From the NCBI RefSeq assembly GCF_000381085.1, contig NZ_KB905899.1:248001-312000 (forward strand): a stretch of 64,000 nucleotides of DNA. The letters run 5' to 3'. The position numbers and the translations under genes were made by a program. The notes beneath the pieces were generated by a model. It saw nothing but the letters and a program-made list of their open reading frames with translations, was not told the DNA's origin and did not search any database. Of the stretch, positions 2,470 through 62,395 are shown piece after piece; the stretch's first letter is position 1; each line of letters starts with the position of its first letter. The stretch comes from Thiomicrorhabdus arctica DSM 13458 (lineage in GTDB: Bacteria > Pseudomonadota > Gammaproteobacteria > Thiomicrospirales > Thiomicrospiraceae).

Positions 2470-2481
2470 ACCAGGCCTGGT
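2470..2481. repeat. Iterated palindrome ACCAGGCCTGGT, copy 1
   Basis: Exact 12-bp palindrome in the leuD-leuB gap. It is one of nine exact copies in the window. There is no loop and no T-run, so it is not an ordinary terminator. Confidence 0.9.
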
Positions 2482-2527
2482 CAGTCACACAACAGAATTT
2501 AAATTTAAAGAAGTAAGAGTTAATGAT

Positions 2528-3601
2528 ATGACACAGCAAGTATTGGTTTTACCAGGAGATGGAATCGGCCCAGAGATCACTGCAGAAGCCGTTAAGGTTT
2601 TAGAAGCATTGAATCGATCTGATAATTTAGATATTGTCCTGTCTGAAGATTTGGTCGGTGGTGCCGCTTATGATGTACATGGTGTGCCATTGTCTGATGA
2701 AACCATGGCCAAAGCACAAGCGGCCGATGCGGTTTTATTAGGTGCTGTTGGTGGGTATAAGTGGGAGTCATTAGATATCTCCGTCCGTCCTGAAAAAGGT
2801 TTGTTACGCTTGCGCTCTGAGATGCAGTTGTTCGCTAACTTACGTCCTGCTTACTTGTTTCCTCAGTTGGCAGATGCGTCAACGTTAAAACCAGAAATCG
2901 TTGCGGGGTTGGATATTTTGATCGTCCGTGAATTAACGGGTGGGATCTATTTTGGTCAACCACGTGGGATACGCACTTTAGAAAACGGTGAACGCCAAGG
3001 GTACAATACTTACGTTTATAAAGAGTCTGAAATCAAGCGTATCGCCCATGTTGCTTTTCAAGCGGCGATGAAGCGTAATAAAAAATTAACGTCTGTTGAT
3101 AAGGCCAATGTATTAGAAGTGACTGAGCTTTGGCGTGAAATAGTCGATGTCGTTGCTAAAGAGTACCCAGAAGTTACAGTGAATCACATGTACGTTGATA
3201 ACGCCGCGATGCAGTTAGTATTTAATCCGAAACAGTTCGATGTGATGGTCACAGGTAATATGTTTGGTGATATCTTGTCGGATGAAGCGTCTATGTTAAC
3301 AGGCTCAATCGGTATGTTAGCATCAGCTTCTTTAGATGCGAATAATAAAGGGATGTATGAACCAAGTCATGGCTCTGCACCTGATATTGCAGGGCAGAAC
3401 TTGGCAAATCCATTAGCCACAATTTTATCGGCGGCGATGATGTTACGTTACACATTAGGTCGTGAAGATTTAGCGGTTAAAATCGAAACAGCGGTCTCTA
3501 AAGTATTAGATCAAGGGTTGCGTACTGGAGATATCTGTTCTGCTGGCATGACTCAAGTCAGTTGCAGTGAAATGGGTGATGCCGTTGTTGCAGCGCTTTA
3601 A
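2528..3601 (+). CDS. leuB: 3-isopropylmalate dehydrogenase LeuB
   Basis: NAD-dependent decarboxylating dehydrogenase that forms 2-oxoisocaproate, the last leucine-specific step before transamination. The 357 residues are typical. The N-terminal [10 protein letters not shown], the substrate region [13 protein letters not shown], the metal-binding stretch [11 protein letters not shown] and the NAD-binding [12 protein letters not shown] are all present. Its ATG is preceded by AAGAAGTAAGAG. It is third in the leu operon. The next gene, on the same strand, belongs to a different process. Confidence 0.97.
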
Positions 3602-3631
3602 GATCCTAGTGGTCGGACGGCTTTCGTTCAG

Positions 3632-4621
3632 ATGAGAAACCATTTTACGATTACCATTAGTGATGTATATGGCACACATGAGTATTCGTTTAAACAGTTT
3701 ATCCGTAAGTTTATATGGATTCTATTTGCGGTTTTCATTGCTGTTTGGACGGTGGGTGGCATTTCGATTTGGTGGTTAAATCAAAAAGCAAATAATGATG
3801 AATTGGTGCATAAGGCTTCCGTAAAAGCATTTACAGCAAGTTTAGAAAAAACACGTTCTGACTATGAAAGTCTGCTTGTTGAAAAGACTAAGTTAGAGCA
3901 GGACTTTTTGAGTACTCGTTCTCAGATCGCATTTTTAGATCAAGCGTTGCAAGGCCTAGAGGAATTGGTCGGCGAAGGGGATTCTGAATCCGAAGTGGAT
4001 GTACCACCTTTGCCTCTCGATGAACGGGTTAAACGCGTTCAGTTAGATTCTTTAGGTAAAAATATCATGATGAGCATGGTACCAAGTGGCCCTGCTGTGG
4101 CGAATTATAGAGGACTAAGCAGTAAGTACGGACGGAGGATTCATCCGATTACCGGTAAAATTCACTTGCATGGTGGACTTGATTATCGCGGTAAAACGGG
4201 GGCTGCGGTTATCGCAACGGCTGATGGTGTGGTTAAATATTCTGCAATGAATGAAGAGAGCGGTTTTGGTAACTTAGTGACTTTGGTGCATGCCAATGGG
4301 TTTATGACGCGTTATGGGCACTTAAGCAAACGCACTGTAAAGCTCGGTGACTATGTACGAAAGGGCGAAAAAATTGGTGAAATTGGCAATACTGGGCGCT
4401 CTACTGGTCCGCATTTACATTATGAAGTTTGGTTTTTATATAAACGACTCAACCCTCAGGCCTTTAATGACTGGTCCTTAGGGAAGTACGATAAAATATT
4501 CACAAAGGTAAAAGGGGTTCCATGGGGTTCTTTAAGTCAAGCCGTCGACATGCTCGTCAAGAAGGTGGAAAAACAATTATTGCTGAAGGGTGTCTCATTA
4601 GCGGTGAAATCGCCGATTTAA
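3632..4621 (+). CDS. M23 (LytM-type) peptidoglycan endopeptidase, membrane anchored
   Basis: Predicted periplasmic zinc endopeptidase acting on peptidoglycan cross-links. There is one transmembrane helix at about residues 27-50, then a charged coiled-coil-like region (about 55-115), then an M23 domain with the zinc motifs HLHGGLDYR (HxxxD type) and HLHYEVW (HxH). It lies directly upstream of, and overlaps, a bactofilin gene. In several bacteria such M23/bactofilin pairs set cell curvature or helical shape (for example the Csd1/CcmA system of Helicobacter), so a cell-shape role is the best inference. The substrate bond and membrane orientation are inferred from the family. Confidence 0.9.
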   Translation: MRNHFTITISDVYGTHEYSFKQFIRKFIWILFAVFIAVWTVGGISIWWLNQKANNDELVHKASVKAFTASLEKTRSDYESLLVEKTKLEQDFLSTRSQIAFLDQALQGLEELVGEGDSESEVDVPPLPLDERVKRVQLDSLGKNIMMSMVPSGPAVANYRGLSSKYGRRIHPITGKIHLHGGLDYRGKTGAAVIATADGVVKYSAMNEESGFGNLVTLVHANGFMTRYGHLSKRTVKLGDYVRKGEKIGEIGNTGRSTGPHLHYEVWFLYKRLNPQAFNDWSLGKYDKIFTKVKGVPWGSLSQAVDMLVKKVEKQLLLKGVSLAVKSPI

Positions 4622-5040
4622 AAGGAGCTTTGCATATTGATGGCCGTATCGATGGTCTTATTGATAGTGGTTATGATGTGTCTATTGGTGAATCAGGGCA
4701 TGTTACAGGCTTGATTAAAGCCAAGCAGATTGTGTTGAGTGGTGTTCTCGAAGGTAAGGTTGCTTGCGAAAGTATTGATATTTTAGCGACGGGCAAACTT
4801 GTTGGCGAGTTGATCTGTGGTGAATTCACGCTAGAAACTGGCGGTAAATTTATTGGCCAGAGCCATGAGATGACGGAAGACGGTATGGCTGTAAGTTTGC
4901 CTGAGACCTTTGAAAAATTGGGTAATATGACACAAATGTCTGTCTTAGAAAGAGTCGCCTTAAATAACCAAAGTAATCAAGCTAATCAAGATGAACAGGT
5001 GGATGAGATGGCTGAGACGTCTCAAGACACTCACCAGTGA
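4522..5040 (+). CDS. Bactofilin family cytoskeletal protein
   Basis: A 172-residue protein with the bactofilin beta-helix repeats at about residues 18-115 (IAEGCLISGEIADLKGALHI and following). It has a short basic N-terminal tail, which may be membrane-binding, and an acidic Gln/Asn-rich C-terminal tail. Bactofilins polymerise without nucleotide and recruit peptidoglycan enzymes. The ATG has an AAAAGGGG ribosome site 5 nt upstream, and the first 100 nt lie inside the end of the M23 gene in another frame. Translational coupling and joint action with that enzyme are likely. The next gene, asd, is 150 bp away. Confidence 0.9.
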   Translation: MGFFKSSRRHARQEGGKTIIAEGCLISGEIADLKGALHIDGRIDGLIDSGYDVSIGESGHVTGLIKAKQIVLSGVLEGKVACESIDILATGKLVGELICGEFTLETGGKFIGQSHEMTEDGMAVSLPETFEKLGNMTQMSVLERVALNNQSNQANQDEQVDEMAETSQDTHQ

Positions 5041-5190
5041 TCATTTCATAAATTATGTTTTTTTGAAAAAAGCATACACATTTTAAGATTTGCTCAAGAT
5101 GAGCATATGCATCGTAATCAATTTTTCAGAGTAGGTTGATTTGCTAGACATAAAACTGCATTACGGTGAAATAATATTGAAGGGTAAAAA

Positions 5191-6213
5191 ATGACTAAGT
5201 TATACGATATTGCTGTTGTGGGAGCAACGGGTGCAGTGGGTGAGACAATATTAAAAGTACTGCAAGAGCGTAATTTTCCTGTGGGCAACTTATACCCATT
5301 AGCGAGTAGCCGTTCTGCAGGTAAAAAGATCCTGTTTGCAGGTAAGTGGATTAAGGTTTTAGATTTGGCAGAGTTTGACTTTTCACAAGCACAAATTGGC
5401 CTCTTTTCACCGGGTGCTAGTGTCTCTAAAATTTATGCCCCTAAAGCGGCAGCAGCAGGGTGCATTGTGATCGATAACACTTCAGAATTCCGTTATGATG
5501 ATGATGTCCCATTGGTCGTACCTGAAGTGAATCCTGATGCGGTTGCCGGTTACAAAGCGCGCGGTATTATCGCCAATCCTAACTGCTCAACAATTCAAAT
5601 GATGGTGGCTTTAAAGCCTATTTATGATGCCGTCGGTATTAAACGCATCAACGTTGCAACCTATCAAGCTGTCTCAGGGACAGGTAAAAATGCGATTGAG
5701 GAACTTGCTAAGCAGACGGCTAACTTATTGAATATGAAGCCAGTAGAAATCGAAGTTTATCCTAAGCAAATCGCTTTCAACGTGATTCCCCAAATTGATG
5801 TCTTTATGGAAAATGGCTATACCAAAGAAGAGATGAAAATGGTCTGGGAAACGCACAAAATTATGGGAGACCCTAATATTAAGGTCAATCCAACAGCCGT
5901 GCGTGTACCTGTGTTTTTTGGTCATAGTGAAGCGATACATATCGAAACGGACAGAAAAATTACAGCAGCTGAAGCGAAAGACTTAATGAAAGCTGCAGAA
6001 GGTATTGTTTTGATAGATGAGCATATCGATGGTGGTTATCCTACGGCCGTGAGTGATGCCGCTGATACCAATCCAGTGTATGTTGGCCGGATACGTGAGG
6101 ATATCTCGACTGAAAATGGTTTGAATATTTGGGTAGTTGCAGATAACGTGCGTAAAGGCGCGGCAACGAATACGATTCAAATTGCTGAATTACTGATTAA
6201 AGATCATATTTAG
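5191..6213 (+). CDS. asd: Aspartate-semialdehyde dehydrogenase
   Basis: NADP-dependent reduction of aspartyl phosphate to the semialdehyde, the branch point for lysine, diaminopimelate, threonine and methionine. The 340-residue chain opens with the nucleotide motif VVGATGAVG. The catalytic Cys132 sits in ANPNCSTIQ and His245 in FFGHSEAIH, matching the Pseudomonas-type family. AGGG lies before the ATG. truA follows after 3 nt. In many relatives fimV lies between asd and truA, and here there is no room for it. Confidence 0.96.
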   Translation: MTKLYDIAVVGATGAVGETILKVLQERNFPVGNLYPLASSRSAGKKILFAGKWIKVLDLAEFDFSQAQIGLFSPGASVSKIYAPKAAAAGCIVIDNTSEFRYDDDVPLVVPEVNPDAVAGYKARGIIANPNCSTIQMMVALKPIYDAVGIKRINVATYQAVSGTGKNAIEELAKQTANLLNMKPVEIEVYPKQIAFNVIPQIDVFMENGYTKEEMKMVWETHKIMGDPNIKVNPTAVRVPVFFGHSEAIHIETDRKITAAEAKDLMKAAEGIVLIDEHIDGGYPTAVSDAADTNPVYVGRIREDISTENGLNIWVVADNVRKGAATNTIQIAELLIKDHI

Positions 6214-7002: not shown

Positions 7003-7637
7003 ACCAGAAGAATCAAAGAACACGCGTTAAAATTTGCGGATTAACCTCTAAGGAAGATGCTTTATTGGCAGTGAATAACGGCGCAGATGCCGTTGGTTTA
7101 GTATTTTATGAACCCAGTCCTCGTCACGTGAATATTGACCAGGCCTGTTCAATTGCAGAATCGATTCCTGCGTTTGTGACCAAGACAGCCTTATTTGTGA
7201 ATCCGGACGCTGAATACGTTAAAGCGGTATTAAGATCGGTTAAAATTGATCTCTTGCAGTTTCACGGTGATGAGAGTCCTGAATTCTGTGAACAATTTGG
7301 TCTGACCTATATTAAAGCCGTCAGAATGCGTGAAGGGATTGATTTAGTGGCTTTAGAAAAGCGTTACAGTGGGTCAGCAGGCTTGCTATTAGATGCTTAT
7401 AAAAAAGGTGTGCCGGGGGGTACCGGAGAACAGTTTGATTGGGCAAGTATTCCAGCAGGGATCGCTCAAAAAATTATTTTAGCGGGTGGTTTAAAGGCTG
7501 AGAATGTCCAGAGAGCTATCCAGCAGGTCGCGCCTTGGGCGCTTGACGTCAGTGGTGGAGTAGAGGCTTCGAAAGGAGTAAAATCCGCTGAAAAAATACA
7601 AAAATTTATGCAACAAGTTATGAGGTCAGTCCAGTGA
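6993..7637 (+). CDS. trpF: Phosphoribosylanthranilate isomerase TrpF
   Basis: TIM-barrel isomerase of tryptophan synthesis. The N-terminal [12 protein letters not shown] holds the catalytic Cys, and [19 protein letters not shown] carries the catalytic Asp and phosphate-loop features. The GTG start overlaps truA by 10 nt; a second GTG six nt later is possible. It ends in a GTGA overlap with trpB, so trpF and trpB are translationally coupled. The length of 214 residues is normal. Confidence 0.95.
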
Positions 7638-10678: not shown

Positions 10679-12025
10679 ATGATAATTCCAAATCGTCATT
10701 CTAGTCTAACGGACTGGGTTGATTGGTTACTTCAATTACACGCTCAAGAAATAGACCTTGGCCTCGACCGAATTCGTTTGGTAGCGAATGCTATGCAATT
10801 GACTAAGCCCGCTCCATTGGTGATTAGTGTTGCTGGCACAAATGGCAAAGGTTCGAGTGTTGCTTTATTGGTTGCGATTCTCAAAGCCGCTGGACATCAA
10901 GTTGGCGCTTATACTTCTCCGCATATCCAGTTTTTTAACGAACGCATACAGATTAACGGTAATCCGGTCAGCGATGATTTAATCATTGAGGCATTTGTCG
11001 CGATTGAAGAGGCAAGAGCACAAACTAAATTAACCTATTTTGAGTTTTCAACCTTAGCGGCACTCTATCTCTTTAAACGAGCTCAGTTAGAGGTCGTCGT
11101 ACTTGAGGTAGGTTTAGGCGGGCGCCTGGATGCCGTCAATATAATCGATGCAGATGCCGCTTTGATCACTGCGATTGATATTGATCATGTCGATTGGTTA
11201 GGAGATGATCGCTCTGTTATCGCCACAGAAAAAGCCGGTATCATGCGCCGTGGGAAACCTGCTGTTTGTTCAGATATGAATCCACCAGCCAGTTTAATGG
11301 CTTATGCAAATGAACATGCCGTGCCGTTAAGCCAGTTTAAAGTTGATTTCGATGTCCTGGTAAATGACCAGGCCTGGTCGTTTACATGGTTAACGCAGCA
11401 AAATGGTGTACAGTTGAAAGGCACATTAGACGACTTACCTTTTCCAGCCCTCAAGGGGGCGTTTCAACTGAATAATGCGGCAGGGGTGATTGCGCTTTTA
11501 TTCAAATTTACGGCCATATTACGAGTGGATCGTAAAGCGATTAATTTAGGCTTACAACAAGTCAGTCATCCTGGTAGATTGCAATCCCTAAAGATTGGCG
11601 CTCAGTCCTGGTTAATTGATGTTGCACATAATCCCCAGTCAGCTCTGGCGTTAGCGACTTACTTACAGCAACAACAAGCCAAGCATACTAAATTACAATA
11701 TTTGTCTCTATTTTCGGTATTAAATGATAAAGATGCACTGCCAATGGTTCAACAGATAGCGCCTTTTGTGTCTACTTGGTTGATTGTTGACTTAGAGATT
11801 CCTCGAGCAACTTCAGTTAACGCTTTACGTGTCTTATTGAAGGCGGCAGGGGTTGAAGATTTAAATATCATCACCAAGAAGAGTATGGAGGATGCAGTTT
11901 CTTATGCAAAAAGCTGTGCTGTAGAAGATGTGTTAGTTTGGGGCTCATTTTTTACGGTATCTCAAGTATTAGCCAGTTTAGCCGTGAAAAAACCCATTTC
12001 AAAAACAGAGAAAGCACATGGATGA
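10679..12025 (+). CDS. folC: Bifunctional folylpolyglutamate/dihydrofolate synthase FolC
   Basis: Adds glutamate to dihydropteroate and extends the polyglutamate tail of folates. The Mur-ligase-type P-loop GTNGKGSSV lies near residue 53, with YTSPHIQFFNERI after it, plus the C-terminal ligase domain with DVAHNPQS. The 448 residues are slightly long but normal. One exact iterated palindrome is embedded at 11367-11378, where it codes DQAW in the central domain. The stop overlaps the SPOR gene by 8 nt. Confidence 0.95.
   Translation: MIIPNRHSSLTDWVDWLLQLHAQEIDLGLDRIRLVANAMQLTKPAPLVISVAGTNGKGSSVALLVAILKAAGHQVGAYTSPHIQFFNERIQINGNPVSDDLIIEAFVAIEEARAQTKLTYFEFSTLAALYLFKRAQLEVVVLEVGLGGRLDAVNIIDADAALITAIDIDHVDWLGDDRSVIATEKAGIMRRGKPAVCSDMNPPASLMAYANEHAVPLSQFKVDFDVLVNDQAWSFTWLTQQNGVQLKGTLDDLPFPALKGAFQLNNAAGVIALLFKFTAILRVDRKAINLGLQQVSHPGRLQSLKIGAQSWLIDVAHNPQSALALATYLQQQQAKHTKLQYLSLFSVLNDKDALPMVQQIAPFVSTWLIVDLEIPRATSVNALRVLLKAAGVEDLNIITKKSMEDAVSYAKSCAVEDVLVWGSFFTVSQVLASLAVKKPISKTEKAHG
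11367..11378. repeat. Iterated palindrome ACCAGGCCTGGT, copy 2 (in folC)
   Basis: Exact 12-bp copy inside folC. The frame reads (G)AC CAG GCC TGG, giving Asp-Gln-Ala-Trp. A weaker partial (TCCTGGT) lies just upstream. Confidence 0.9.
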
Positions 12026-14173: not shown

Positions 14174-14185
14174 ACCAGGCCTGGT
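14174..14185. repeat. Iterated palindrome ACCAGGCCTGGT, copy 3
   Basis: Exact 12-bp copy in the 69-bp purF-metZ gap. The flanks (TTA before, AGC after) do not extend the palindrome. Confidence 0.9.
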
Positions 14186-18692: not shown

Positions 18693-19529
18693 ATGTTTAA
18701 CATTAAAGCATTAATTGACGAAAAATCATCAACTCAAGATGGCATGCCTCTCGTAATGGGTGTTTTAAATGTTACTCCAGACTCTTTTTCAGACGGTGGG
18801 CGTTTTGTCACTCAAAATCAGTTTACGCAACATGTTGCAGAGATGGTTTTAGCGGGCGTTGATATTATTGATGTCGGTGGAGAGTCCACCAGGCCTGGCG
18901 CGATTAAAATAGGGCTTCAACAAGAGTTAGATCGTGTATTGCCAGCGATTGAGTGGATTGCCGCACGTTACGATACGCCCCTCTCAATTGATACCTATAA
19001 ACCTCAGGTAATGAGCGAAGCGGTTAGCGGAGGTGCCGTGTTGATTAATGATGTCAATGCATTGCAGGCGGAAGGTGCTATTGAATGTGCTATAAATTCC
19101 GGCGCTACGGTTTGTTTAATGCATAAATTGGGTGAGTTTGCTACGATGCAGGATACGCCTGAATATCAAGACGTGGTAAAAGATGTTTGTGACTTTTTAT
19201 TAGCTCGTGCAAACCTGTGTCAACAAGCGGGAATGGATAAAAATAAAATTATCTTAGATCCAGGGTTTGGGTTTGGTAAGACTTTAGCGCATAATAGCGA
19301 GCTATTCGAAAATTTAGAGCGTTTCGTCTTGTTGGGGTATCCTCTTTTAGTGGGGGTCTCCAGAAAGCGCATGATCGGTGATATTTTAAATGCAGCTGCT
19401 GTAGAAGATCGAATTGTCGGTAGTGTGGCCGCAGCGGTTTTAGCGTCGCTTAAGGGGGCTCGTATTGTGCGAGTTCATGATGTTAAAGAAACGGTTGAGG
19501 CTTTACGGGTCACAATGCATTTAATGTAG
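18693..19529 (+). CDS. folP: Dihydropteroate synthase FolP
   Basis: Condenses para-aminobenzoate with dihydropterin pyrophosphate in folate synthesis. The TIM-barrel signatures MGVLNVTPDSFSDGG and GGESTRPGA are present, with DPGFGFGKT and a C-terminal RVHDVKET. The 278 residues are normal. It sits in the usual ftsH-folP-glmM order. A near copy of the iterated palindrome (18888-18898) falls in the conserved STRPG codons and is probably coincidental. Confidence 0.97.
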   Translation: MFNIKALIDEKSSTQDGMPLVMGVLNVTPDSFSDGGRFVTQNQFTQHVAEMVLAGVDIIDVGGESTRPGAIKIGLQQELDRVLPAIEWIAARYDTPLSIDTYKPQVMSEAVSGGAVLINDVNALQAEGAIECAINSGATVCLMHKLGEFATMQDTPEYQDVVKDVCDFLLARANLCQQAGMDKNKIILDPGFGFGKTLAHNSELFENLERFVLLGYPLLVGVSRKRMIGDILNAAAVEDRIVGSVAAAVLASLKGARIVRVHDVKETVEALRVTMHLM

Positions 19530-26931: not shown

Positions 26932-29043
26932 ATGGTAAAAATTGAGATAAACGGACAAGTGGTCGAAGCTCAAGAAGGTTGCATGCTCATTGATGTTGCT
27001 GATGATGCTCAGATTCAAATTCCCCGTTTTTGTTACCACAAGAAGCTCTCCATTGCAGCAAACTGCCGTATGTGTCTTGTTGAAGTGGAAGGTGCTTGGA
27101 AAGCACTGCCTGCGTGTGCCACTCCGGTCACGGACGGCATGAAGGTACATACTAAATCGGCAAAAGCCATTTCAGCACAGAAGTCTGTCATGGAATTTTT
27201 GTTGATTAACCACCCACTGGATTGTCCTATTTGTGATCAAGGTGGAGAGTGTGAGCTACAAGATGTTGCCATGGACTATGGTGATGATGTTTCCCGTTTT
27301 ACAGAAGCAAAGCGTGTCGTAAGCGATAGTAATGCTGGCCCTTTGATTAAGACAGACATGACACGTTGTATTCACTGTACTCGTTGCGTGCGTTTTGGCC
27401 AAGAAGTGGCTGGAATGATGGAATTAGGAGCGACAGGTCGCAGTGAATGGATGGAAATCGGTACTTATATCGAAAAGTCCATTACCTCAGAGATGTCCGG
27501 CAATATGATCGATTTGTGTCCTGTAGGCGCTTTAACCTCTAAGCCCTATAGATACACAGCGCGAGCTTGGGAGCTTATCGCTCATAAATCTATTGCAGCT
27601 CATGACAGCATGGGGTCTCATATTCATGTTCACTCCAAAAATAATGAAATAAAACGCGTTGTACCTCGTGAGAACGAGGCGATTAATGAAGTCTGGTTGT
27701 CTGATAGAGATCGTTTCTCATATGAAGGCATTAACTCTGACACGCGATTAACACAACCCTTGATCAAACAGAATGGATCTTGGAATATTGTTGATTGGGA
27801 GACAGCGCTTGAATTTACCGTTGCCGGTTTGCAAAAGACCTTGGTCAACAGTCAAGATATAGGTGTGTTAGCTTCGGCGAGTTCAACGTTAGAAGAGTTG
27901 CATTTACTGCAGAAGCTTGCCCGTGGAGTCGGCATTGAAAATATTGATTTTCGTCATCGTCAAGTTGATTTTACGATAGATCAAACCGACTTTAATGTGC
28001 CAACTTTGGCGCATGAGATCGTAGACGTTGAAAAATTAGAGGTGGTATTGATTGTTGGTTCTTACTTAAGAAAGGAATTGCCAATTCTTAATCACCGCAT
28101 TCGTAAGGCCTTTTTAGAGGGCGCTAAAATTGCTGTCGTTAATCCAATAGATTTTGATTTTAACTATAAAACAACACTACTGAATATCGAATCAGGTATG
28201 GTGTTCAACCTTGCTGGTATTGCTAAAGCGGTACTTGATATTGTGGGTGAAACTGACCAGACCTGGTTGAATTCAATTCAACCGACGGATGAACACATTG
28301 CAATTGCAACAACGCTTGTGGATGCAAAAAAATCGAGCATTATGTTGGGTCAAATCAGTCAAATGCATGCAGACTATAGTGTTCTGCAGAAATTGGCGAG
28401 TATTATTGCTGAAAGCAGCTCAACGACTCTTAATATTCTCCCGTTAGCCGCAAATGAAGTCGGTGCCCACTTAGTGAACTTCCTGCCTAAGTTGGGTAAG
28501 AACAGTGCTCAAATGATTAAGGATGGCTTAAAAGCATTTATTAATATGAATATCGAAGTTGAAGCTGACTTCACGGATGCTGATGCCGCCGTTAATGCGA
28601 TGAACAAGGCCGAATTTGTGGTGAATTTAACCGCATTTGACAGCGATTTGCAGCGTCAATATGCTGATGTCATGTTGCCCATTGCCACTTATGCTGAAAC
28701 GGCTGGAACTTTCGTTAATGCGACGGGTTTGAAGCAATCATTCAAAATGTCAGTAGAACCGAAAGGTGATGCGAAAGCGGCTTGGAAGGTATTACGTGTT
28801 TTGGGTAATATGTTTGATATTGCAGGTTTTGATTATGTCCATAGTAATGAAGTGTTAAGTGAGCTCTTAGACAATACTGCTGACAAGGTGGATTTTTCTG
28901 CTGTAAGCAGCCAATTGCCCACGTCTAATAACGATTCTAAAGTACAGATAATCTCGCCATATCATGTCGATGCCGTGGTTAGAAGATCTCCTTCATTACA
29001 AGCCACACCAGATGCTGACCCAGCCACTATGGGAAGAGGATAA
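26932..29043 (+). CDS. nuoG: NADH-quinone oxidoreductase subunit G
   Basis: 75-kDa-type subunit. The N-terminal [2Fe-2S] domain ([10 protein letters not shown]), the His-ligated cluster ([18 protein letters not shown]) and the [18 protein letters not shown] 4Fe-4S set are complete. The rest is a molybdopterin-oxidoreductase-like region without cofactor. It has 703 residues, toward the short end of the family. One single-mismatch copy of the iterated palindrome lies at 28256-28267, read as DQTW. Confidence 0.95.
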
Positions 29044-46319: not shown

Positions 46320-46331
46320 ACCAGGCCTGGT
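46320..46331. repeat. Iterated palindrome ACCAGGCCTGGT, copy 4
   Basis: Exact 12-bp copy just 3' of the BCCT transporter gene, extended by one matched base pair each side (TACCAGGCCTGGTA). Confidence 0.9.
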
Positions 46332-48591: not shown

Positions 48592-51156
48592 CTATTTTGT
48601 ACGTGGCCGACGTGGTTGTATCGATCTGCCTGGTTTCTCTTCAAGCGGTTTTTCTGGCCAACGGTGTCTGCGGTATTTACCGCGCATCTCTTTGGCGACC
48701 TCTATATACGAGGTGTTCCAAAAGTTGGCTAAATCGGCGGTGATTTGAATGGGTTTTTGAGCGGGTGACAGCAAATCAAACGTGAGGGCGATTTGGCCAT
48801 TCGCCAGTTTGGGAGATGAGAGTTCACCGAACAGCTCTTGCAGTTGAATCGCGACTTTAGGTGATTTTCCCATTTGATAGTCAATGGCCACTCGTTTACC
48901 GGATGGCGCGGTGTAATGCGTGGGGGCGTATTGTTCTATTGCGTTTAATTCGGAATAACTGAGTCTGGCTTGCAATAGACTCAATAAATCCAATTTTGCT
49001 AAATCTGACCACTGTGTGACATGGCTTAGATAGGGCAGACACCACTTTTCAAAATCATTCACTAGCTCCTCTGTCGAAAATAGGGCGTATTCTGGCAAGT
49101 ATTGGCCTAACCAGGACACGCGATCTAACCAGGCCTGGTTGGTTTTATTCCACGGTAGTTTTTCTAAATTTGAGGCCAAAATGACCTGTGTCATACAGGT
49201 CTGAACGTCGGTTGGCTTGAGTTTTTGGGTGGAGGTTTGCTGTAGACTTAGTGCACCGAGTTTTCGAAAAGTGGTGCCTAAAATACGCTGTTTTTTGTCA
49301 TCAAAAGTGACACTGGTCTCGGTGGTGATTTGCGTGGCAAAGAGTGATTCTATATCCTCTAGGGTAATCGGTGCCGCCATAAAGACTTTACCATCTCGAC
49401 GTTGGCCATCTAAATGGGCGACTACTAACCAGGCCTGGTCATTTAAACGATCTTCAGGCGTCAGAAAACAACCTTTGCCATTGCTTAGTTGATAACGGCC
49501 GTCGGCATTTGAACGACGTTTGGCGACTCTGTCAGGATAGGCTAAGGCTAGCATCTGACCTATTGAAAGCTGGGTAGTGGATGTTTCTGACTTTAAAGTA
49601 TTCGGCAAACCAAGCACTCGTTTTTTCCACTGCTGGCTATTTCTAATGGCTTCTCGCGTCGCCGACAGTACGAGTTGTGAGGCGTTTGATGTTTTACTGT
49701 TTTGACGATAAGCCTGTAAAGCCTCAACCCTATCCTCTAAATTAACTCCATAACCACGTTTGAAAATATCCCGTTCACTCAAAATGGCGGCGATGTCACA
49801 AGCCGTGGTGAGAGATTGCTCTCCAGTTTGTGCTGCAATCAAAAGCATCTTTGCTAAACGTGCCGAAAGGCCGAGTTGACTCGCTTGCTCTCCTAAGGGC
49901 TTGAGAGAACCATTGGTTTTTAAAAAGCCTAGCTGGATTAACAGCGCTTGCGCGATTTGGTAGTGTGCTTTTGGCGGTGGCGTTAACCAGCGTAAATCTT
50001 CTAAATTAGTCACGCCCCACATGGCCATCTCTAAACTTAAGTCTGTCAGATCGGAGTTTAAAATCGATTCGGCTGTGAAGGCTATACGGCTTTTGTGATC
50101 GGATTCTGTCCATAAACGATAAGCATGACCTTCAGCCAATCGACCTGCTCGACCTGAGCGTTGTGTGGCGGACGCTTGCGAGATGTTTTGGGTCAGCATG
50201 CGGGTCATGCCGCTACTGGCATCATAAGCCGCGTGACGGACTAAACCGCTGTCGATGACAATGTGAATGCCTTCTATGGTTAAACTGGTTTCGGCAATAT
50301 TGGTCGAGAAAATGACCTTGCGACGATGTTTAGCATCTTTGAGCAATACCTTGCTTTGGGCTTCAGGCGTGAGTCCACCATAGAGCGGAATCAGAGCTAC
50401 TTCCGCAGGGTTGATACTTTCGGAGGCATGTCTGATAGTTTCTAGAATTTCTTTTTGACCCGGTAAAAAAATCAGACAGTCTCCACTATGTTGCTCAAGT
50501 GTCTTGAGTAAAGCCTGAGTAATCACGATATAAAACGGGTGTCCATAGAGTAGCGATAATGGTTTCGGTGGTGCACTGGTTAAGTAATGGATATTGACGG
50601 GGAAGGTCCGACCAGGGCATTGAATAACGGGCGAATTGTCCAAAAACAGACTTAATGAGTCGCTTGCAATCGTGGCGGACATAATCAAAATCTTTAGATC
50701 TTCTCGCAGTGCAGATTGGCTGTCTAAACATAACGCCAGGGCTAAGTCTGAATCCAAGGAACGTTCATGAAATTCATCAAAAATAATCAAGGCCGTTTCA
50801 CTGAGTTCCGGATCGTTTTGCAGGCGTCTGATTAAAATCCCTTCAGTCATGATTTCAACCACCGTCTCTTTGGATATTTGACGGTCATTGCGAACTTGAT
50901 AACCAATGCGCTGGCCGACTTTTTCACCGAGTTGCTTCGCGAGAAAAGCCGCAAGGGAACGCACTGCCAATCGACGAGGCTCCAGTAGGATGATTTTGCG
51001 ACCTTGTAACCATTCAGCTTGCATCAATGCTAAAGGCACTTGCGTTGATTTACCTGCTCCTGGCTCAGCTTGGAGTATGCAGGCCGAATGTCCAGCTAAA
51101 CAGTTCTGAATCTGTGGGATAAAGGCATGGATCGGTAACTCAGTGGTTGCAGACAT
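48592..51156 (-). CDS. hrpB: ATP-dependent helicase HrpB
   Basis: DEAH-box helicase. Walker A is QAEPGAGKSTQVPLALM, motif II is DEFHERSLDSDLAL, motif III SAT, and motif VI QRSGRAGRLAEGHAYRL. A C-terminal HrpB-specific domain follows (KWCLPYLSHVTQWSDLAKLD). It has 854 residues. It carries two exact iterated palindromes, read as NQAW and DQAW. Its physiological role is unclear in most bacteria. Confidence 0.94.
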   Translation of the reverse strand: MSATTELPIHAFIPQIQNCLAGHSACILQAEPGAGKSTQVPLALMQAEWLQGRKIILLEPRRLAVRSLAAFLAKQLGEKVGQRIGYQVRNDRQISKETVVEIMTEGILIRRLQNDPELSETALIIFDEFHERSLDSDLALALCLDSQSALREDLKILIMSATIASDSLSLFLDNSPVIQCPGRTFPVNIHYLTSAPPKPLSLLYGHPFYIVITQALLKTLEQHSGDCLIFLPGQKEILETIRHASESINPAEVALIPLYGGLTPEAQSKVLLKDAKHRRKVIFSTNIAETSLTIEGIHIVIDSGLVRHAAYDASSGMTRMLTQNISQASATQRSGRAGRLAEGHAYRLWTESDHKSRIAFTAESILNSDLTDLSLEMAMWGVTNLEDLRWLTPPPKAHYQIAQALLIQLGFLKTNGSLKPLGEQASQLGLSARLAKMLLIAAQTGEQSLTTACDIAAILSERDIFKRGYGVNLEDRVEALQAYRQNSKTSNASQLVLSATREAIRNSQQWKKRVLGLPNTLKSETSTTQLSIGQMLALAYPDRVAKRRSNADGRYQLSNGKGCFLTPEDRLNDQAWLVVAHLDGQRRDGKVFMAAPITLEDIESLFATQITTETSVTFDDKKQRILGTTFRKLGALSLQQTSTQKLKPTDVQTCMTQVILASNLEKLPWNKTNQAWLDRVSWLGQYLPEYALFSTEELVNDFEKWCLPYLSHVTQWSDLAKLDLLSLLQARLSYSELNAIEQYAPTHYTAPSGKRVAIDYQMGKSPKVAIQLQELFGELSSPKLANGQIALTFDLLSPAQKPIQITADLANFWNTSYIEVAKEMRGKYRRHRWPEKPLEEKPGRSIQPRRPRTK
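49128..49139. repeat. Iterated palindrome ACCAGGCCTGGT, copy 5 (in hrpB)
   Basis: Exact copy, extended to AACCAGGCCTGGTT (14 bp). Read on the minus strand as Asn-Gln-Ala-Trp-Leu. Confidence 0.9.
49428..49439. repeat. Iterated palindrome ACCAGGCCTGGT, copy 6 (in hrpB)
   Basis: Exact copy 300 bp from copy 5 (equal to 100 codons, start to start). Read on the minus strand as Asp-Gln-Ala-Trp-Leu. Confidence 0.9.
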
Positions 51157-53132: not shown

Positions 53133-53138
53133 AGTGTT

Positions 53139-55847: not shown

Positions 55848-55927
55848 TTTCTATTGTTCCATGAGTAGGGATATAAAAAGAATGACTGCATGGAATATCA
55901 TAAACAATAAAGTCATTTACATGCAAT

Positions 55928-55965: not shown

Positions 55966-55971
55966 AGGTAT

Positions 55972-56325: not shown

Positions 56326-56371
56326 ATAATGGAAAGTTCGTTTGACACGAAAACTGATGAAATTCAGTTCT

Positions 56372-56383
56372 ACCAGGCCTGGT
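56372..56383. repeat. Iterated palindrome ACCAGGCCTGGT, copy 7
   Basis: Exact copy 47 bp upstream of the ssrA 5' end, forming a pair with copy 8 (24 bp start to start). Confidence 0.9.
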
Positions 56384-56395
56384 CAGTTCTAATTT

Positions 56396-56407
56396 ACCAG
56401 GCCTGGT
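56396..56407. repeat. Iterated palindrome ACCAGGCCTGGT, copy 8
   Basis: Exact copy in the ssrA-smpB gap. The two copies share left flank TTTACC/TCTACC and lie a little over two helical turns apart. Confidence 0.9.
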
Positions 56408-56589
56408 GGCTTTTAAAGCCAAATAAATTGATTGTTTAAATTTACTGACAATCTCTTTATAAGGCCGATAAACTCTTTTTCAAGGGGTTTATCTAAAGCA
56501 AGGTTATTATAGCGTTTTTATAAAAGAACTCATCGTCTTATTTAACTTGAATTCATGTAATCGTGAATTTAGCCGTTCTTAAAAAGAGA

Positions 56590-57072: not shown

Positions 57073-57221
57073 ATCTTTTTAGTCGAAACCGACCCTTTAA
57101 ACAGATTATTTTAAACTATTGTTATTATAACAAAATCGCTACAATGATTTACTATCCAAATGCGGTAATGCCTGACTGGCGTGCCTTCATTCGTTTATTT
57201 CCCAGCAGAATGCTGAGTTGT

Positions 57222-57971: not shown

Positions 57972-58232
57972 GAAGTGACTCCTTAAATTAGACAATTTTT
58001 TATTCTAGCATGAATCCGTACTCAACGGATTCATGCTCTAAAATAGCCTCTTTGAAAGGCATTGAAAATAATCGGCCATTGGCACATTCACTCCATTGGC
58101 TACCGTTTAAAGAGCTTTGTTATAATGCGCCATAAAACGCACGTTATAATAGTGTAATCAATATCGACACAGGTGTGTCTAGTGTTCAATTAATCACTTA
58201 AATGTTAAAGATAATCGTTAGCCTTAAACCTT

Positions 58233-58664
58233 ATGAAAAAAATATCCAGAACAGCTCTGTTACCTTATTCAGCCAAACAAATGTATGACATTGTCAATAA
58301 CATCGCGGACTATCCTAACTTTCTACCTTGGTGTGGTGACTCCGAAGTTGTGTCGGAAACGGATTTAGAGATGATTGCTAGTGTGACCATTGCTAAGGCT
58401 GGAATTCGCCAGACGTTTAAAACCCGTAATCATTTAGTGCCTAATGAACGTATTGAAATGCATTTGGTAGAAGGTCCATTTAAATCCTTGAAAGGCGAGT
58501 GGAGTTTTAAAGTATTGGATGTGGATGCGTGTAAAATCAAGTTCGAAGTCGAGTTCGAAGTCAGTAATGGTTTGTTTAATGTCGCCATAGGACCTATTTT
58601 TGAACATATCGCCAGTACATTAGTAGACTCATTTTGTGAGCGAGCCAAGCAGATCTACTCTTAA
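58233..58664 (+). CDS. ratA: RatA-type START/polyketide-cyclase family protein
   Basis: Small START-domain (COQ10/RatA) protein of 143 residues: LPYSAKQMYDIVNNIADYPN, FLPWCGDSEV, GPFKSLKGEWSF. Homologues bind quinone or, in E. coli, 50S subunits. The neighbours smpB and rnfH match the conserved cluster. TATAAT sequences at 58121 and 58145 suggest a promoter upstream. Whether it acts as a toxin or a quinone chaperone cannot be told from sequence. Confidence 0.9.
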   Translation: MKKISRTALLPYSAKQMYDIVNNIADYPNFLPWCGDSEVVSETDLEMIASVTIAKAGIRQTFKTRNHLVPNERIEMHLVEGPFKSLKGEWSFKVLDVDACKIKFEVEFEVSNGLFNVAIGPIFEHIASTLVDSFCERAKQIYS

Positions 58665-58730
58665 ACCGGTGGCTTTAATCAGTAACTCACTTTCGATTAG
58701 CTTTTATGCACGTTTTATTAAGGGTTTATT

Positions 58731-59021
58731 ATGAACAATAAAATTCAGATAGAAGTGGCCTATGCGTTACCAGAAGAACAGTTTTTATTCACTGAAGAAA
58801 TTGCCCAAGGGTCTACCGTCGCTCAAGCTCTAGCGGACTCTAAACTCTTGAAGGAATTTCCAAACTTGAATATCGATAAAGTCGGGATTTTTGCTAAGTT
58901 AGTCGACAGCAATACTATTTTACGCCCTGGGGATCGTATCGAAGTCTACAGACCTTTAAAAGTCGACCCTCGTGATCGCCGTAGAGAGAAGGTAGAAAAA
59001 GAGCGTAAAGAAGCGAAGTAG
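58731..59021 (+). CDS. rnfH: RnfH family ubiquitin-like protein
   Basis: 96-residue beta-grasp protein (IQIEVAYALPEEQFLFTEEI, GDRIEVYRPLKVDPRDRRRE) with a charged C-terminal tail. It always travels with ratA; its function is not settled. It is followed by a bidirectional terminator shared with bamE. GGGTTT precedes the ATG. Confidence 0.92.
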   Translation: MNNKIQIEVAYALPEEQFLFTEEIAQGSTVAQALADSKLLKEFPNLNIDKVGIFAKLVDSNTILRPGDRIEVYRPLKVDPRDRRREKVEKERKEAK

Positions 59022-59106
59022 TTCATCTCAGCTAGTTTGCATGATGATCGTTAATCGTTCGTGATGATTGCAAAGGCTTAGGGGAGTACGGATACATGTT
59101 CGTAGT

Positions 59107-59142
59107 CCTAAAAAAGACCTGAAGTTTCAGGTCTTTTTTAGG
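59107..59142. terminator. Bidirectional terminator between rnfH and bamE
   Basis: Two perfect 17-bp arms (CCTAAAAAAGACCTGAA and its complement) around a central GT, with T6 on each strand. It serves both convergent genes. Confidence 0.92.
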
Positions 59143-59161
59143 TAATTGATATCTTTAGAGG

Positions 59162-59614
59162 TTAGAACCAATCCAGTCCTAACCAAGAGTCATCGTGATT
59201 TAGGGTGACATTGGTGGGTAGCGCTTTCCAGTCTTTTATCATTCCATCTTCATCAAAATTGATGACCAAATGTTTCGTAGAATCGGTATGTAAGGTGGTG
59301 TTTGAGCTGTAAAAAACATATTCCCAATGATTTGGGTTAAATGGATCTCTACCTTGTGGCGGTCCAATTAACTCACGAACTTGTTCCTTGGTCAGCCCTT
59401 CCTGTATATGTGAAACCGATTCTTCTGTCATCACATTGCCTTGCGTTAAAGGTGCTTTGTAAGGGGCAAGGTAAGAGCAACCACTTAATAGGCACACTGA
59501 AAGCGCTAATGACAGCCCCAGCGTTTTGTTTTTAAGTTGGCAGTTAATAAGAGGCTTTTGTTTTAAATTTAAGCCTGATTTGCACGCGGTCAGCTTCAAT
59601 GTTTTCATACTCAT
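59162..59614 (-). CDS. bamE: Outer membrane assembly lipoprotein BamE (SmpA/OmlA)
   Basis: BAM-complex lipoprotein. The lipobox LLSGC puts the lipidated Cys at residue 46, an unusually long signal N-region; a later start is possible but no good site is seen. The mature domain has the BamE motifs QGNVMTEESVSHIQEGLTKE, QVRELIGPPQGRDPFNPNHW and YVFY. It has 150 residues. It is divergent from fur, as in many gammaproteobacteria. Confidence 0.92.
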   Translation of the reverse strand: MSMKTLKLTACKSGLNLKQKPLINCQLKNKTLGLSLALSVCLLSGCSYLAPYKAPLTQGNVMTEESVSHIQEGLTKEQVRELIGPPQGRDPFNPNHWEYVFYSSNTTLHTDSTKHLVINFDEDGMIKDWKALPTNVTLNHDDSWLGLDWF

Positions 59615-59642
59615 TTAGGTGTCTGTGATGGATGATTTAAGG

Positions 59643-59675
59643 TATTATACACACTAATTGAGATTGTGAATCTCA
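59643..59675 (-). promoter_or_regulatory. bamE promoter overlapped by an inverted repeat
   Basis: On the minus strand TGTGTATAAT gives an extended -10 at 59652-59643. The perfect inverted repeat TGAGATT-GTG-AATCTCA (59659-59675) lies over the -35 position. A second overlapping symmetry, TTGTGA-ATC-TCACAA, is centred beside it. This is a candidate operator in the bamE/fur divergent region. Confidence 0.45.
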
Positions 59676-59804
59676 CAACAAAAATAAAATCAATAAAGCA
59701 ACTGAACATGTTCTAAGACAACGAAATCGCGGTTTGTAAAACAAAATTCGCGACCTTTCCTGTGATAGAACATCGTTACAATGTGTTAAAGACCAGAGGA
59801 TTCC

Positions 59805-60209
59805 ATGAGCGGCGCAGAACTTAAGAAAGTGGGCTTAAAGGTTACTTTACCGAGATTAAAAATTTTAGAAATTCTTGAGAGTTTAGGGGATCAGCATCAC
59901 CTTACGGCAGAGGATGTTTATAAGATTTTGTTAGAACAGGGCGAAGAAGTAGGGCTTGCAACCGTTTATCGTGTTCTGACACAGTTTGAACAAGCAGGTA
60001 TTGTTCGCCGCTTGAATTTCGAAAACAGCATCTCTATTTTTGAGCTGGATACCGGTGATAACCATGATCACCTTGTGTGCGTTAAAAATGGTACGGTTAA
60101 AGAGTTCGTTGATCCTATTATTGAAGAGCGTATTAAGGAAATTGCCAAAGAAAATGGTTACGAGTTAGCGAGTCATAACCTTGTAATCTATGGTTCTTTA
60201 ACCGAATAA
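59805..60209 (+). CDS. fur: Ferric uptake regulator Fur
   Basis: Iron-dependent repressor of 134 residues: winged helix (LKVTLPRLKILEILE, HHLTAEDVYKILLEQGEEVG, ATVYRVLTQFEQAGIV) and dimerisation/metal domain (FELDTGDNHDHLVC). The usual CxxC is CVKN, so the second structural-zinc Cys is lost, as in Pseudomonas Fur. HHDH is NHDH. AGAGGA precedes the ATG. Regulated together with, or opposite to, bamE. Confidence 0.94.
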   Translation: MSGAELKKVGLKVTLPRLKILEILESLGDQHHLTAEDVYKILLEQGEEVGLATVYRVLTQFEQAGIVRRLNFENSISIFELDTGDNHDHLVCVKNGTVKEFVDPIIEERIKEIAKENGYELASHNLVIYGSLTE

Positions 60210-60253
60210 AGAGCTGTTTAACGTTGTTAAAACTTTTTCCAAATATAAGAAAT

Positions 60254-60288
60254 AGGCCGTTCAAACACTGATTTGAATGGCCTTTTTT
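60254..60288 (+). terminator. Terminator of fur
   Basis: 12-bp stem AGGCCGTTCAAA/TTTGAATGGCCT (one G-T pair), 6-nt loop, then a T-run. Confidence 0.9.
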
Positions 60289-60330
60289 GTGTGTTTTCCG
60301 CTAATATTTGCTTCACGCTAAGAAGGGGGG

Positions 60331-60693
60331 TTAATCTTGAATCAGTTGGATATCTACTTGAGCTGATTCTTTATCGATTTTAAAAAGGCATTCACAAAAT
60401 TCAGCCTGACTGTTCATTGGAGTAGGGTCATCAGCACAGCTGCAACCAGCGATCAGGCCACTGTAAAACAGACCTGTTTTGATCTCTAAATAATTGTCTG
60501 TCTCTTGAATTGAGATAATCATGACTTTAAAGTCGTCTAGCATGGCATAGTTCGATTGCTGCAAAGCGGCTTGCAGAGGCAAAATATCGCCGTCTAATTC
60601 TTCCACTTCATGAATGAAAATGGCTTTAAAGTCGGCAAGGTTTTGCTTTGTTCTATTGTTCCAGGCCTGTAATGACTTTAAAAAAGTAATCAA
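60331..60693 (-). CDS. Conserved hypothetical protein with CSC motif
   Basis: 120 residues, soluble, acidic. Visible features are a compact cysteine cluster AGCSCADDPTP and a later FCECLF, which could bind a metal. No family name comes to me with certainty, though similar proteins with GCSCADDPTP occur in gammaproteobacteria. It is transcribed ahead of nothing obvious and lies just downstream of recN on the same strand. A partial iterated palindrome at 60661 codes LQAW. Confidence 0.7.
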   Translation of the reverse strand: MITFLKSLQAWNNRTKQNLADFKAIFIHEVEELDGDILPLQAALQQSNYAMLDDFKVMIISIQETDNYLEIKTGLFYSGLIAGCSCADDPTPMNSQAEFCECLFKIDKESAQVDIQLIQD

Positions 60694-60724
60694 TTTATCT
60701 TCCTAAATTTTGTTCTGTAAACGA

Positions 60725-62395
60725 CTAAGAATTGAATTGTTGAGCACTGCTAAACATCTCTTTCGCATGTTCCAGGGTTTGTTGACTGATGGTTAATCCA
60801 CCCATCATACGCGCCAGTTCTTCAATACGTGCCGCTTCATCAAGCTCGATGACTTGAGTAAATGTTAACTCATTTTCAGTCCGTTTTTCAATCTGTAGGT
60901 GAGTATGACCATGCGATGCAACTTGTGCTAAATGAGTGATGGACAATATTTGTTTGTGTGCACCTAATTGCTGCATTTTTTTGCCGACGACTTCAGCAAT
61001 TGCACCGCCGATACCAACATCAACTTCATCAAATATGAGCGTGGGTAGACTCGTCACTTCTGCGGTGGCAACTTGAATCGCTAAACTGATTCTTGATAAT
61101 TCACCACCAGATGCGACTTTGGCTAAAGGCTGTAAAGGTTGGCCTTTATTCGCAGTCACATGAAAAGCGACCTTATCTAAACCACTGGCGTTGACGCTCT
61201 CCAGAGCTGAAATTTGGGCTTCAAATAAGCCATTAGGCATGCCTAGTGAGTGCATGCCTTCGGTCACAATCTTAGAGAGTTTTTCGGCGGCCTTACGACG
61301 TGATTTACTTAAGGCCGAACCACTGTTTTGAAATGTTGACCAGGCCTGGTCAATTTCACTTTTAAGGGTTTCTAAAGAGGCATCTGACTGCGTTAGACTA
61401 GTTAAGTCATCTTTAAGTTGTTGGTGTTTTTCAACCAGGGTCTCGGGCTCTAAATTGTATTTTTTGGCGAGGCCGAACAATAAAGCTAAGCGTTCTTCAA
61501 TCCGGCTGAGTTGGTTAGGATCTAATTCTATGTCACTCGAGTGTTTATGAATCTCCGCAGCGGCTTCTTGAGCTTCAATGAGAGCACTGTTGAGTTGCTC
61601 AATAGTGACTTGCAAACTTGGGCTGTAGCTCACTATGGATTCAATAGCGTGAATAGCTTGATTGACTAAATCTGCCGCACCTGAACTCCCCTCGATCGCT
61701 TCATAAGCATTTTCACAGGCCAGAATAATTTCATTGGCATGTGAGAGTTGACTCTGTTCTTCCGAAAGTTCTTCAAACTCTTCTTGAATAGGCTGAACGT
61801 CATCAAATTCACTGTTTTGAAAAGACAAAAGTTCAAACTTACTTTGAAAGTCAGCTTGATTGGTCAGTAGCGTATCCAATTGGCGATTCAAAACCTGCCA
61901 GGCCTGGTAATCTTGGCGACAGGTTTTGATTAACTCTGGATGAACGGCGTAAGCGTCTAACAATCCTAACTGTTTATGATTTGAAAGTAGCGATTGATGT
62001 TCGTGTTGTCCATGAATATCAATCAGCATGCTGCCTAGAGATTTTAATAGGCTAGAGGGGATGGGGCGGCCATTGATATACGCTTTAGAGCGGCCTTCTG
62101 AAGTGACGGTTCTACGTAGGTAGCAATCACCGTCATCGTCGAGCTCCTGATCAACTAACCAGGCCTGTACATGCGGTAACTGTTTGATATCAAATTGGGC
62201 ACTTACTTCGGCTCTTGGCGTATTATGGCGTACTAGACTGCTGTCTGATCGATCTCCTAAAGTGAGACCTAATGCATCCAGTAGTATGGATTTACCGGCA
62301 CCGGTTTCACCGGTTAAGCTGCTAAACCCCTTATTAAAATTGAGTTGCAGTTTTTCGATTAGAGCCAGGTTTTGAATGGAGAGTTCTTGTAGCAT
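60725..62395 (-). CDS. recN: DNA repair protein RecN
   Basis: SMC-like ATPase for double-strand-break repair. N-terminal Walker A SLTGETGAGKSILLDALGLT, a long coiled coil (about 155-370), then signature and Walker B ASGGELSRISLAIQ and PTLIFDEVDVGIGGAIAEVV. It has 556 residues. It carries one exact and two near copies of the iterated palindrome, all coding QAW. It sits beside fur and nadK in the usual order. Confidence 0.97.
   Translation of the reverse strand: MLQELSIQNLALIEKLQLNFNKGFSSLTGETGAGKSILLDALGLTLGDRSDSSLVRHNTPRAEVSAQFDIKQLPHVQAWLVDQELDDDGDCYLRRTVTSEGRSKAYINGRPIPSSLLKSLGSMLIDIHGQHEHQSLLSNHKQLGLLDAYAVHPELIKTCRQDYQAWQVLNRQLDTLLTNQADFQSKFELLSFQNSEFDDVQPIQEEFEELSEEQSQLSHANEIILACENAYEAIEGSSGAADLVNQAIHAIESIVSYSPSLQVTIEQLNSALIEAQEAAAEIHKHSSDIELDPNQLSRIEERLALLFGLAKKYNLEPETLVEKHQQLKDDLTSLTQSDASLETLKSEIDQAWSTFQNSGSALSKSRRKAAEKLSKIVTEGMHSLGMPNGLFEAQISALESVNASGLDKVAFHVTANKGQPLQPLAKVASGGELSRISLAIQVATAEVTSLPTLIFDEVDVGIGGAIAEVVGKKMQQLGAHKQILSITHLAQVASHGHTHLQIEKRTENELTFTQVIELDEAARIEELARMMGGLTISQQTLEHAKEMFSSAQQFNS
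61336..61353. repeat. Iterated palindrome, copy 9, extended to 18 bp (in recN)
   Basis: Exact core at 61339-61350, and symmetry continues to TTGACCAGGCCTGGTCAA, the longest version in the window. It codes Asp-Gln-Ala-Trp in the coiled coil. Confidence 0.9.
61898..61908. repeat. Near copy of the iterated palindrome (in recN)
   Basis: CCAGGCCTGGT, 11 of 12 bases; the outer A is G. It codes Tyr-Gln-Ala-Trp. A shorter one, ACCAGGCCTG, lies at 62158-62167 (Val-Gln-Ala-Trp). Confidence 0.75.

Follow-up and report, generated by a model that had tools for sequence, protein, structure and literature searches.

An iterated palindrome with species dialects in the Thiomicrospiraceae, tentatively read as a DNA uptake-type signal

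A 64-kb stretch of the genome of Thiomicrorhabdus arctica DSM 13458 (contig NZ_KB905899.1, positions 248,001 to 312,000; hereafter the window) carries nine exact copies of ACCAGGCCTGGT, a 12-bp palindrome. We found that this palindrome is one spelling of a motif that is real, widespread in the sulfur-oxidising Thiomicrospiraceae and apparently undescribed. It is iterated by the hundreds in motif-rich genomes, its outer bases differ between species in the manner of dialects, and individual sites are kept at orthologous positions, including within codons. Judging from these properties, the motif may be a DNA uptake-type self-recognition signal, an assignment that we consider quite possible rather than probable and that we weigh against its alternatives in the last section.

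Iteration in the window, the genome and the family

An earlier note on this DNA, made by eye from the letters of the window, had listed nine exact and four near copies, lying both inside and between genes. All nine exact copies were confirmed, as was their mixed placement (see the list of sites below). Two of the near copies, at 28256 and 61897, indeed differ from the palindrome at one position; the other two are more distant, with two mismatches at 62158 and three at 60660, and retain an 8-bp core, CAGGCCTG. Altogether the window holds four one-mismatch copies (at 7138, 18888, 28256 and 61897) and 14 occurrences of the core, and ACCAGGCCTGGT ranks first among its over-represented 12-mers in an order-2 ranking. 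Shuffled versions of the window contained a mean of 0.12 matches with at most one mismatch, the largest count being 1.

The complete genome holding the window (G000; 2,552,883 bases on 6 contigs) contains 333 exact copies, whereas the reversed string, used as a control, does not occur. In a 464-kb sample of this genome, 57 copies were found where an order-2 Markov model predicts ~0.04, which scales to ~0.2 per genome. The earlier note would have given up its proposal had the genome-wide count been close to a Markov expectation or had the copies been confined to the window; neither is the case, because the count is far above expectation and the motif recurs throughout the genome and in relatives. 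Exact copies also outnumber those with one mismatch, of which the same sample has 28, 20 of them altered at the outer positions 1 and 2, 6 carrying G6>A, and one each altered at position 3 and position 5, with none at A4. The copies are dispersed and share no long homology, in line with the earlier view that they are neither a transposon nor a gene family. Both of these origins, as well as a repetitive extragenic palindromic (REP)-type repeat, were rejected, given that there is little conservation beyond ~12 bp from the centre and that sites sit in aligned codons.

We compared 58 genomes, 37 of them from the Thiomicrospiraceae and 21 from outside the family. Within the genus, exact copies of ACCAGGCCTGGT number 0–718; three further genera of the family have 289, 181 and 400, another two have none, and the 21 outside genomes have 0–1. 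Counting the core instead separates 18 motif-rich family genomes, with 236–1173 copies of CAGGCCTG, from 19 motif-poor ones with 3–74, two of which (G024 and G021) use other spellings. In three of six motif-poor genomes compared with a Markov model, the core was near or moderately below expectation (32/36, 36/41 and 27/60 observed/expected), and in the other three it was far below, with 4–5 copies against 20–22 expected. The motif-free sisters G017, G023 and G012 show this latter deficit, as if the core were avoided. In the same sisters G-tracts are over-represented, CCCCCCCC for example having 16 copies in 27 kb of G017 where 0.4 would be expected.

A search for pairs of ACCAGGCCTGGT spaced 5–35 bases apart in genome contigs of 84,980 species, a set that may omit records of the window's own genome, returned 37 stretches. 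These were named Thiomicrospira, Thiomicrorhabdus or Hydrogenovibrio in 35 cases, and the remaining 2 came from a single metagenome-assembled genome labelled 'Gammaproteobacteria bacterium'. A scan of viral contigs gave one 35-kb IMG/VR contig (L230) with a close pair. On a protein tree of 21 genomes, in which some deep nodes are weakly supported, G021 was scored as poor and G001 and G006 were not included, the rich and poor states require 4 changes, compared to 7.1 in shuffles (smallest 3; p 0.013). The motif state therefore appears to be inherited, with clade-wise loss. The earlier note knew of no description of the 12-mer, and neither a published description of it nor a report of an uptake sequence or signal for Thiomicrospira was found in the literature searched, in which subscription papers were mostly outside coverage.

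Dialects, footprint and positions kept between species

The dialect words emerged from counts of k-mers, palindromic and otherwise, in sequence samples of the relatives (G028, with 4.8 kb, was left out, and G001 and G006 were too short for one k-mer sampling). ACCAGGCCTGGT is the iterated word in most motif-rich genomes sampled, and is replaced by AGCAGGCCTGCT in G008, AACAGGCCTGTT in G018 and ACAGGCCTGT in G002, with consensuses drawn from 16, 14 and 7 sites, respectively. Mixed outer bases surround CAGGCCTG in G005, G026 and G035. The two motif-poor genomes with spellings of their own depart further. G024 has no copy of ACCAGGCCTGGT and 1025 copies of ACCGGCCGGT, a word whose count does not exceed 15 in any of the other 36 family genomes. 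G021 uses the asymmetric AACAGGCCGGGT, with 41 occurrences in 200 kb where the rounded expectation is 0.0, in a dialect ~18 bp long. A trace of the G024 form was seen in G025 (3 copies of ACCGGCCGGT in 100 kb). No iterated word of this kind was found in samples of 20–140 kb from G003, G011, G012, G013, G014, G017, G020, G023, G027 and G031, the smallest of which could miss a sparse word.

Aligned on their centres, the sites show a footprint of ~24 bp. A is the commonest base at positions -12, -11 and -10 in all dialect sets but G035, and T at -8 in all but G018; inward of these lie the dialect bases, then C at -4 and the GG|CC centre. The A-tract lies on both sides of the centre, except in G021, which has it on one side only. 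Left and right flanks are positively associated, the T/A at the second flanking base being present on both sides in 73 sites, on one side in 28 and on neither in 13. In the genomes with the ACC dialect the near flanks are alike for genic and intergenic sites, if slightly weaker in genes. The flanks had been called unrelated in the earlier note, which does not hold in view of this position-specific A-tract and T pattern; likewise, the two CCWGG sites within the palindrome, described there as overlapping, abut.

Orthologous sites stay put while their outer bases follow the species dialect. At recN codon 350, CAG GCC TGG is found in 11 of the 13 motif-rich genomes aligned and in 0 of 8 others, among which Ala-Trp is also common at this position. 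At folC codon 231 the same codons occur in 8 of 12 motif-rich genomes and in 0 of 9 others; here Trp is near-universal, and in 8 of these 9 different residues stand in place of the preceding Gln-Ala. In G021, which was scored with the others, both positions read CAG GCC GGG, corresponding to its own asymmetric core. Between leuD and leuB, a core site is present in 6 of 11 motif-rich relatives for which a piece of the trpB region was available, although such a piece need not always extend to this interval; the site is spelled AGC...GCT in G008, in a mixed form in G010 and ACC...GGT in the rest. These alignments indicate that sites are long-lived in place, are re-spelled there and can set amino acid residues where these are free. 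New sites probably arise by substitution.

The sites of the window, in coordinates of the window, are as follows.
2470..2481, exact copy between leuD (1788-2426) and leuB (2528-3601)
7138..7149, one-mismatch copy inside trpF; core at the same codons (aa49-50) in G007, G022, G018, G008 and G005
11367..11378, exact copy inside folC (aa231)
14174..14185, exact copy between purF (end 14145) and the O-succinylhomoserine sulfhydrylase gene (14215); the G007 interval also has a site
18888..18899, one-mismatch copy inside the open reading frame 18693-19529; same-codon core in G007 and G010
28256..28267, one-mismatch copy ACCAGACCTGGT inside nuoG, with the core itself altered
46320..46331, exact copy just past the 3' end of a BetT-like transporter gene (46336-48441, minus strand)
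49128..49139, exact copy inside hrpB
49428..49439, exact copy inside hrpB
56372..56383, exact copy between ssrA (tmRNA, 55972-56325) and smpB, first of a pair 24 bp apart
56396..56407, exact copy between ssrA and smpB, second of the 24-bp pair
60660..60671, degenerate copy with the core CAGGCCTG intact and 3 mismatches to the 12-mer
61339..61350, exact copy inside recN (aa350)
61897..61908, one-mismatch copy with the core kept, inside recN (aa164); G007 and G005 share the core at aa164
62158..62169, two-mismatch copy with the core kept, inside recN (aa77); G018 and G019 share the core at aa77

Gene context, spacing and pairs

Gene context was assessed with genes called as the longest open reading frames rather than by a trained gene finder, and in genomes other than the motif-free G003, G020 and G025. 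Sites are strongly enriched between genes: in the G000 sample 33 of 57 are intergenic, compared to 7.4 expected, and 24 are genic. Intergenic sites were similarly frequent in G019 (34/64), G036 (16/41), G009 (14/21), G015 (9/12), G033 (9/17) and G024, scored in its own dialect (22/39), with G035 (0/5) as the sole exception. Among the classified intergenic sites of G000, 10 of 31 lie between convergent genes, which make up 15% of intergenic sequence, and 3 of 31 in divergent regions, which make up 26%. The divergent deficit is weaker elsewhere (7/34 vs 31% in G019, 4/15 vs 32% in G036 and 3/13 vs 24% in G009).

Where two sites lie 5–35 bases apart, a distance of 24 bp is commonest (10 of 38 pairs), and 12 of the 14 pairs within 40 bp in motif-rich samples (G006 and G030 not counted) are intergenic. 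The orientation of such pairs is visible only in G021. This genome has 5 pairs within 40 bp, and every one is inverted; convergent genes flank 3 of the pairs and divergent genes 1. The G021 motif shows no preference for a gene strand, with 29 genic sites on the same strand and 31 on the opposite one, and it is found 39 and 50 times on the two strands of the pieces. A role as an orientation-dependent site, of which Chi and the FtsK-orienting polar sequences (KOPS) are known kinds, is not supported by these counts. Spacing is otherwise near random (coefficient of variation 0.70–1.02), an exponential distribution not being rejected at the 0.05 level in four tests (p 0.055–0.204), and gives no support to a regularly spaced organiser.

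Possible readers of the motif

Iterated self-recognition motifs for DNA uptake are said to exist in only two families (PMC12616744), as the DNA uptake sequences (DUS) of Neisseriaceae and the uptake signal sequences (USS) of Pasteurellaceae. DUS occur in hundreds to thousands of copies (943–5918 per genome), in dialects that follow phylogeny around a fixed core, and are missing altogether from some members of the family (PMC3630211). USS combine a core with discontinuous AT-rich parts and likewise fall into dialect types (PMC12616744); both kinds of sequence form inverted pairs at gene ends (PMC1852404), and those of USS act as terminators (PMC12616744, PMC1852404).

The motif described here resembles both systems. 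It is a short word iterated by the hundreds, at the low end of their numbers, with exact copies dominant. Its dialects surround a fixed core and are consistent with phylogeny, some family members lack it, close pairs are inverted at gene ends as far as orientation can be read (in G021), and the ComEC channel is present. With USS it has in common dialect types, inverted pairs and discontinuous A-tracts that recall the AT-rich parts of the former (PMC12616744). Since the dialects, the phylogenetic pattern, the inverted pairs and the intergenic placement match what has been described for DUS and USS, we favour an uptake-type signal, and the same interpretation agrees with the absent strand bias and with motif copies overriding protein residues. 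According to this scenario, the palindrome would be the local dialect of a family-wide self-recognition signal. A cell-surface receptor would prefer motif-bearing DNA, DNA of kin carrying the motif would be taken up and recombined more often, and over many generations this bias (molecular drive) would pile up exact copies wherever they are tolerated, preferentially between genes and also inside them, even setting amino acids at free positions. As the specificity of the receptor drifted, the copies would follow and species dialects would result. The receptor-type reader, natural transformability and uptake-driven accumulation are what we infer from the pattern of sites.

The machinery is less favourable to DNA uptake. 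ComEC was detected in 33 of the 37 family genomes, and in G000 ComEC/Rec2 scores well over the cut-off (contig 1, 346181-348811), with two motif sites (346659 and 347925) inside its reading frame; its presence does not track the motif, as 16 of 19 motif-poor genomes have it along with 17 of 18 motif-rich ones. G000 further encodes an MSHA (mannose-sensitive hemagglutinin)-type pilus cluster with MshL over the cut-off, an MshE-type ATPase and a GspF-type protein (contig 1, L068:161-9644). The type IV competence pilus with PilQ and a receptor minor pilin that characterises DUS and USS users was not recovered. PilQ and ComP_DUS exceed their cut-offs in 0 of the 37 family genomes, compared to 18 and 14, respectively, of the 21 outside ones, and GspH/FimT does so barely, and only in G011, G020 and G027 (3/37), all motif-poor. 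As a possible reader or partner, none of ComP, FimT and PilQ exceeded its cut-off in the 18 motif-rich genomes. No receptor minor pilin was found in motif-rich genomes via ComP_DUS or GspH/FimT (PpdA/ComN, a USS receptor candidate, was not searched), and a simple pattern gave no prepilin-like protein in 18% of G000. The MSHA-type cluster together with the missing PilQ suggests a family without the canonical PilQ-type pilus, and an uptake signal would consequently need a pilus and a receptor that have escaped recognition.

Other features weigh in the same direction. Most dialects are palindromic with positively associated flanks, whereas known uptake sequences are asymmetric; the A-tracts are two-sided except in G021, whereas the AT-tracts of USS are one-sided; and the motif differs in sequence from DUS and, at 236–1173 cores per motif-rich genome, lies at or below the low end of DUS counts. 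No report of transformation in these bacteria was found by title in literature on natural transformation and Thiomicrospira. It is conceivable, though somewhat less likely than an uptake-type signal as such, that the Thiomicrospiraceae independently evolved a third self-recognition system for transformation, in which an MSHA-type pilus lacking PilQ, ComP and FimT would serve to read a palindromic signal, and in which the half-sites could drift separately and so give rise to the asymmetric dialect of G021.

Against an uptake signal, then, stand the absence of canonical pilus components, the two-fold symmetry of most dialects and a copy number below that of DUS. The main rival, somewhat unlikely in our estimation, is an intracellular chromosome-organising or nucleoid protein. 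Such a protein would bind a 24-bp footprint at hundreds of sites, under selection on chromosome structure and with a specificity that drifts between species, and MatP/matS, Noc and SlmA are comparable systems whose palindromic sites are read by dimers. Its appeal lies in the symmetric footprint, whose A-tracts keep a constant distance to the centre in every palindromic dialect set except G035, in the association between left and right flanks, in the retention of orthologous positions and in the shortage of sites in promoter (divergent) regions, which is clearest in G000 and G024 (2/21) and weaker in G019 and G036. The present motif has far more copies than the sites of those systems, however, and no regular spacing. 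Of the 37 family genomes, 19 have few copies of the core and 17 of these also lack both other spellings counted, which would be odd for a core chromosome function, and the asymmetric G021 dialect, with its single A-tract and no strand bias, argues against a strictly two-fold organiser site. Selection at each site strong enough to set protein residues is also hard to picture without drive.

Resemblance to the cyanobacterial highly iterated palindrome HIP1 (GCGATCGC) had been pointed out in the earlier note, and it is borne out in so far as the motif is an over-represented GC-rich palindrome, longer than and different from HIP1, everywhere but in G021. HIP1 and the alternate HIPs are likewise GC-rich and replace one another between genomes, and Elhai's model links them to resident methylases (PMC4390886). 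An orphan DNA methyltransferase could, together with biased repair, create and keep the sites in the present family as well, and the concentration of one-mismatch copies at the outer positions or as G6>A would suit such a process. We nevertheless regard it as improbable, because the methylase families PF00145 and PF01555, for which every match with an E-value of 0.001 or better was counted, are both missing from 7 of the 18 motif-rich genomes (G000, G010, which is 86% complete, G015, G018, G022, G026 and G033). Taken singly, PF00145 has no match in 10 of the 18 and PF01555 none in 12 (other adenine methylases, e.g. PF02086, PF02384 and PF07669, were not searched). Nor is either family linked to the iterated motif, as they are about equally common in motif-poor and motif-rich genomes (8/19 and 8/18 for PF00145, 6/19 and 6/18 for PF01555). 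Cytosine methylation of the Dcm or GGCC type was accordingly discarded as a general cause; of the methylation or nucleoid-protein target suggested in the earlier note, a methylation target of this usual cytosine kind is not supported. Sites of type II methylases are usually shorter than a 24-bp scaffold or the ~18-bp asymmetric dialect, and the intergenic bias, the longer footprint and the occurrence in another phylum also set the motif apart from HIPs. Extended flanks, species dialects and the asymmetric form together speak for an uptake-like or protein-binding signal, not for a methylase site. Least plausible of all is that the sites are mainly intrinsic terminators, in which the palindrome with its A-/T-tracts, or a 24-bp pair, would fold into a hairpin. 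Intergenic and convergent enrichment and the mostly intergenic close pairs would fit, and a scan of 46001-62500 flagged two single sites as terminator-like; both of these, however, lie in hrpB and recN on the antisense strand, many sites are genic (30 of 64 in G019, besides those of G000) with the same near flanks as intergenic ones, and a hairpin does not need a fixed spelling. Termination is thus at most a secondary use.

Should the uptake-type interpretation be correct, the Thiomicrospiraceae would be a third family of uptake-motif users, in free-living chemoautotrophs, and the reasons for which such motifs evolve could be tested by comparison. Regardless of the reader, the dialect series (ACC, AGC, AAC, mixed, asymmetric and CCGGCCGG) with its kept positions offers a natural experiment on the joint evolution of a DNA-reading protein and its hundreds of sites, and is a caution against taking every HIP-like repeat for a methylation site.

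Several other over-represented words were encountered in the same samples. In the window, CTTCTGCA/TGCAGAAG occurs 15 times against 2.3 expected. G033 has a second iterated word, AGGCTAAAGCCT (12 vs 0.02 expected), along with AGGCTTTAGC (13 vs 0.28), in 100 kb. Repeats in G019 (~72 copies, with words such as GTGGATTGAAAC) and G020 (~97) are probably clustered regularly interspaced short palindromic repeat (CRISPR) arrays or other tandem repeats. In the samples of G019, TTTCACGTGAAA was found 6 times against 0.04 expected, which may be a parS cluster.

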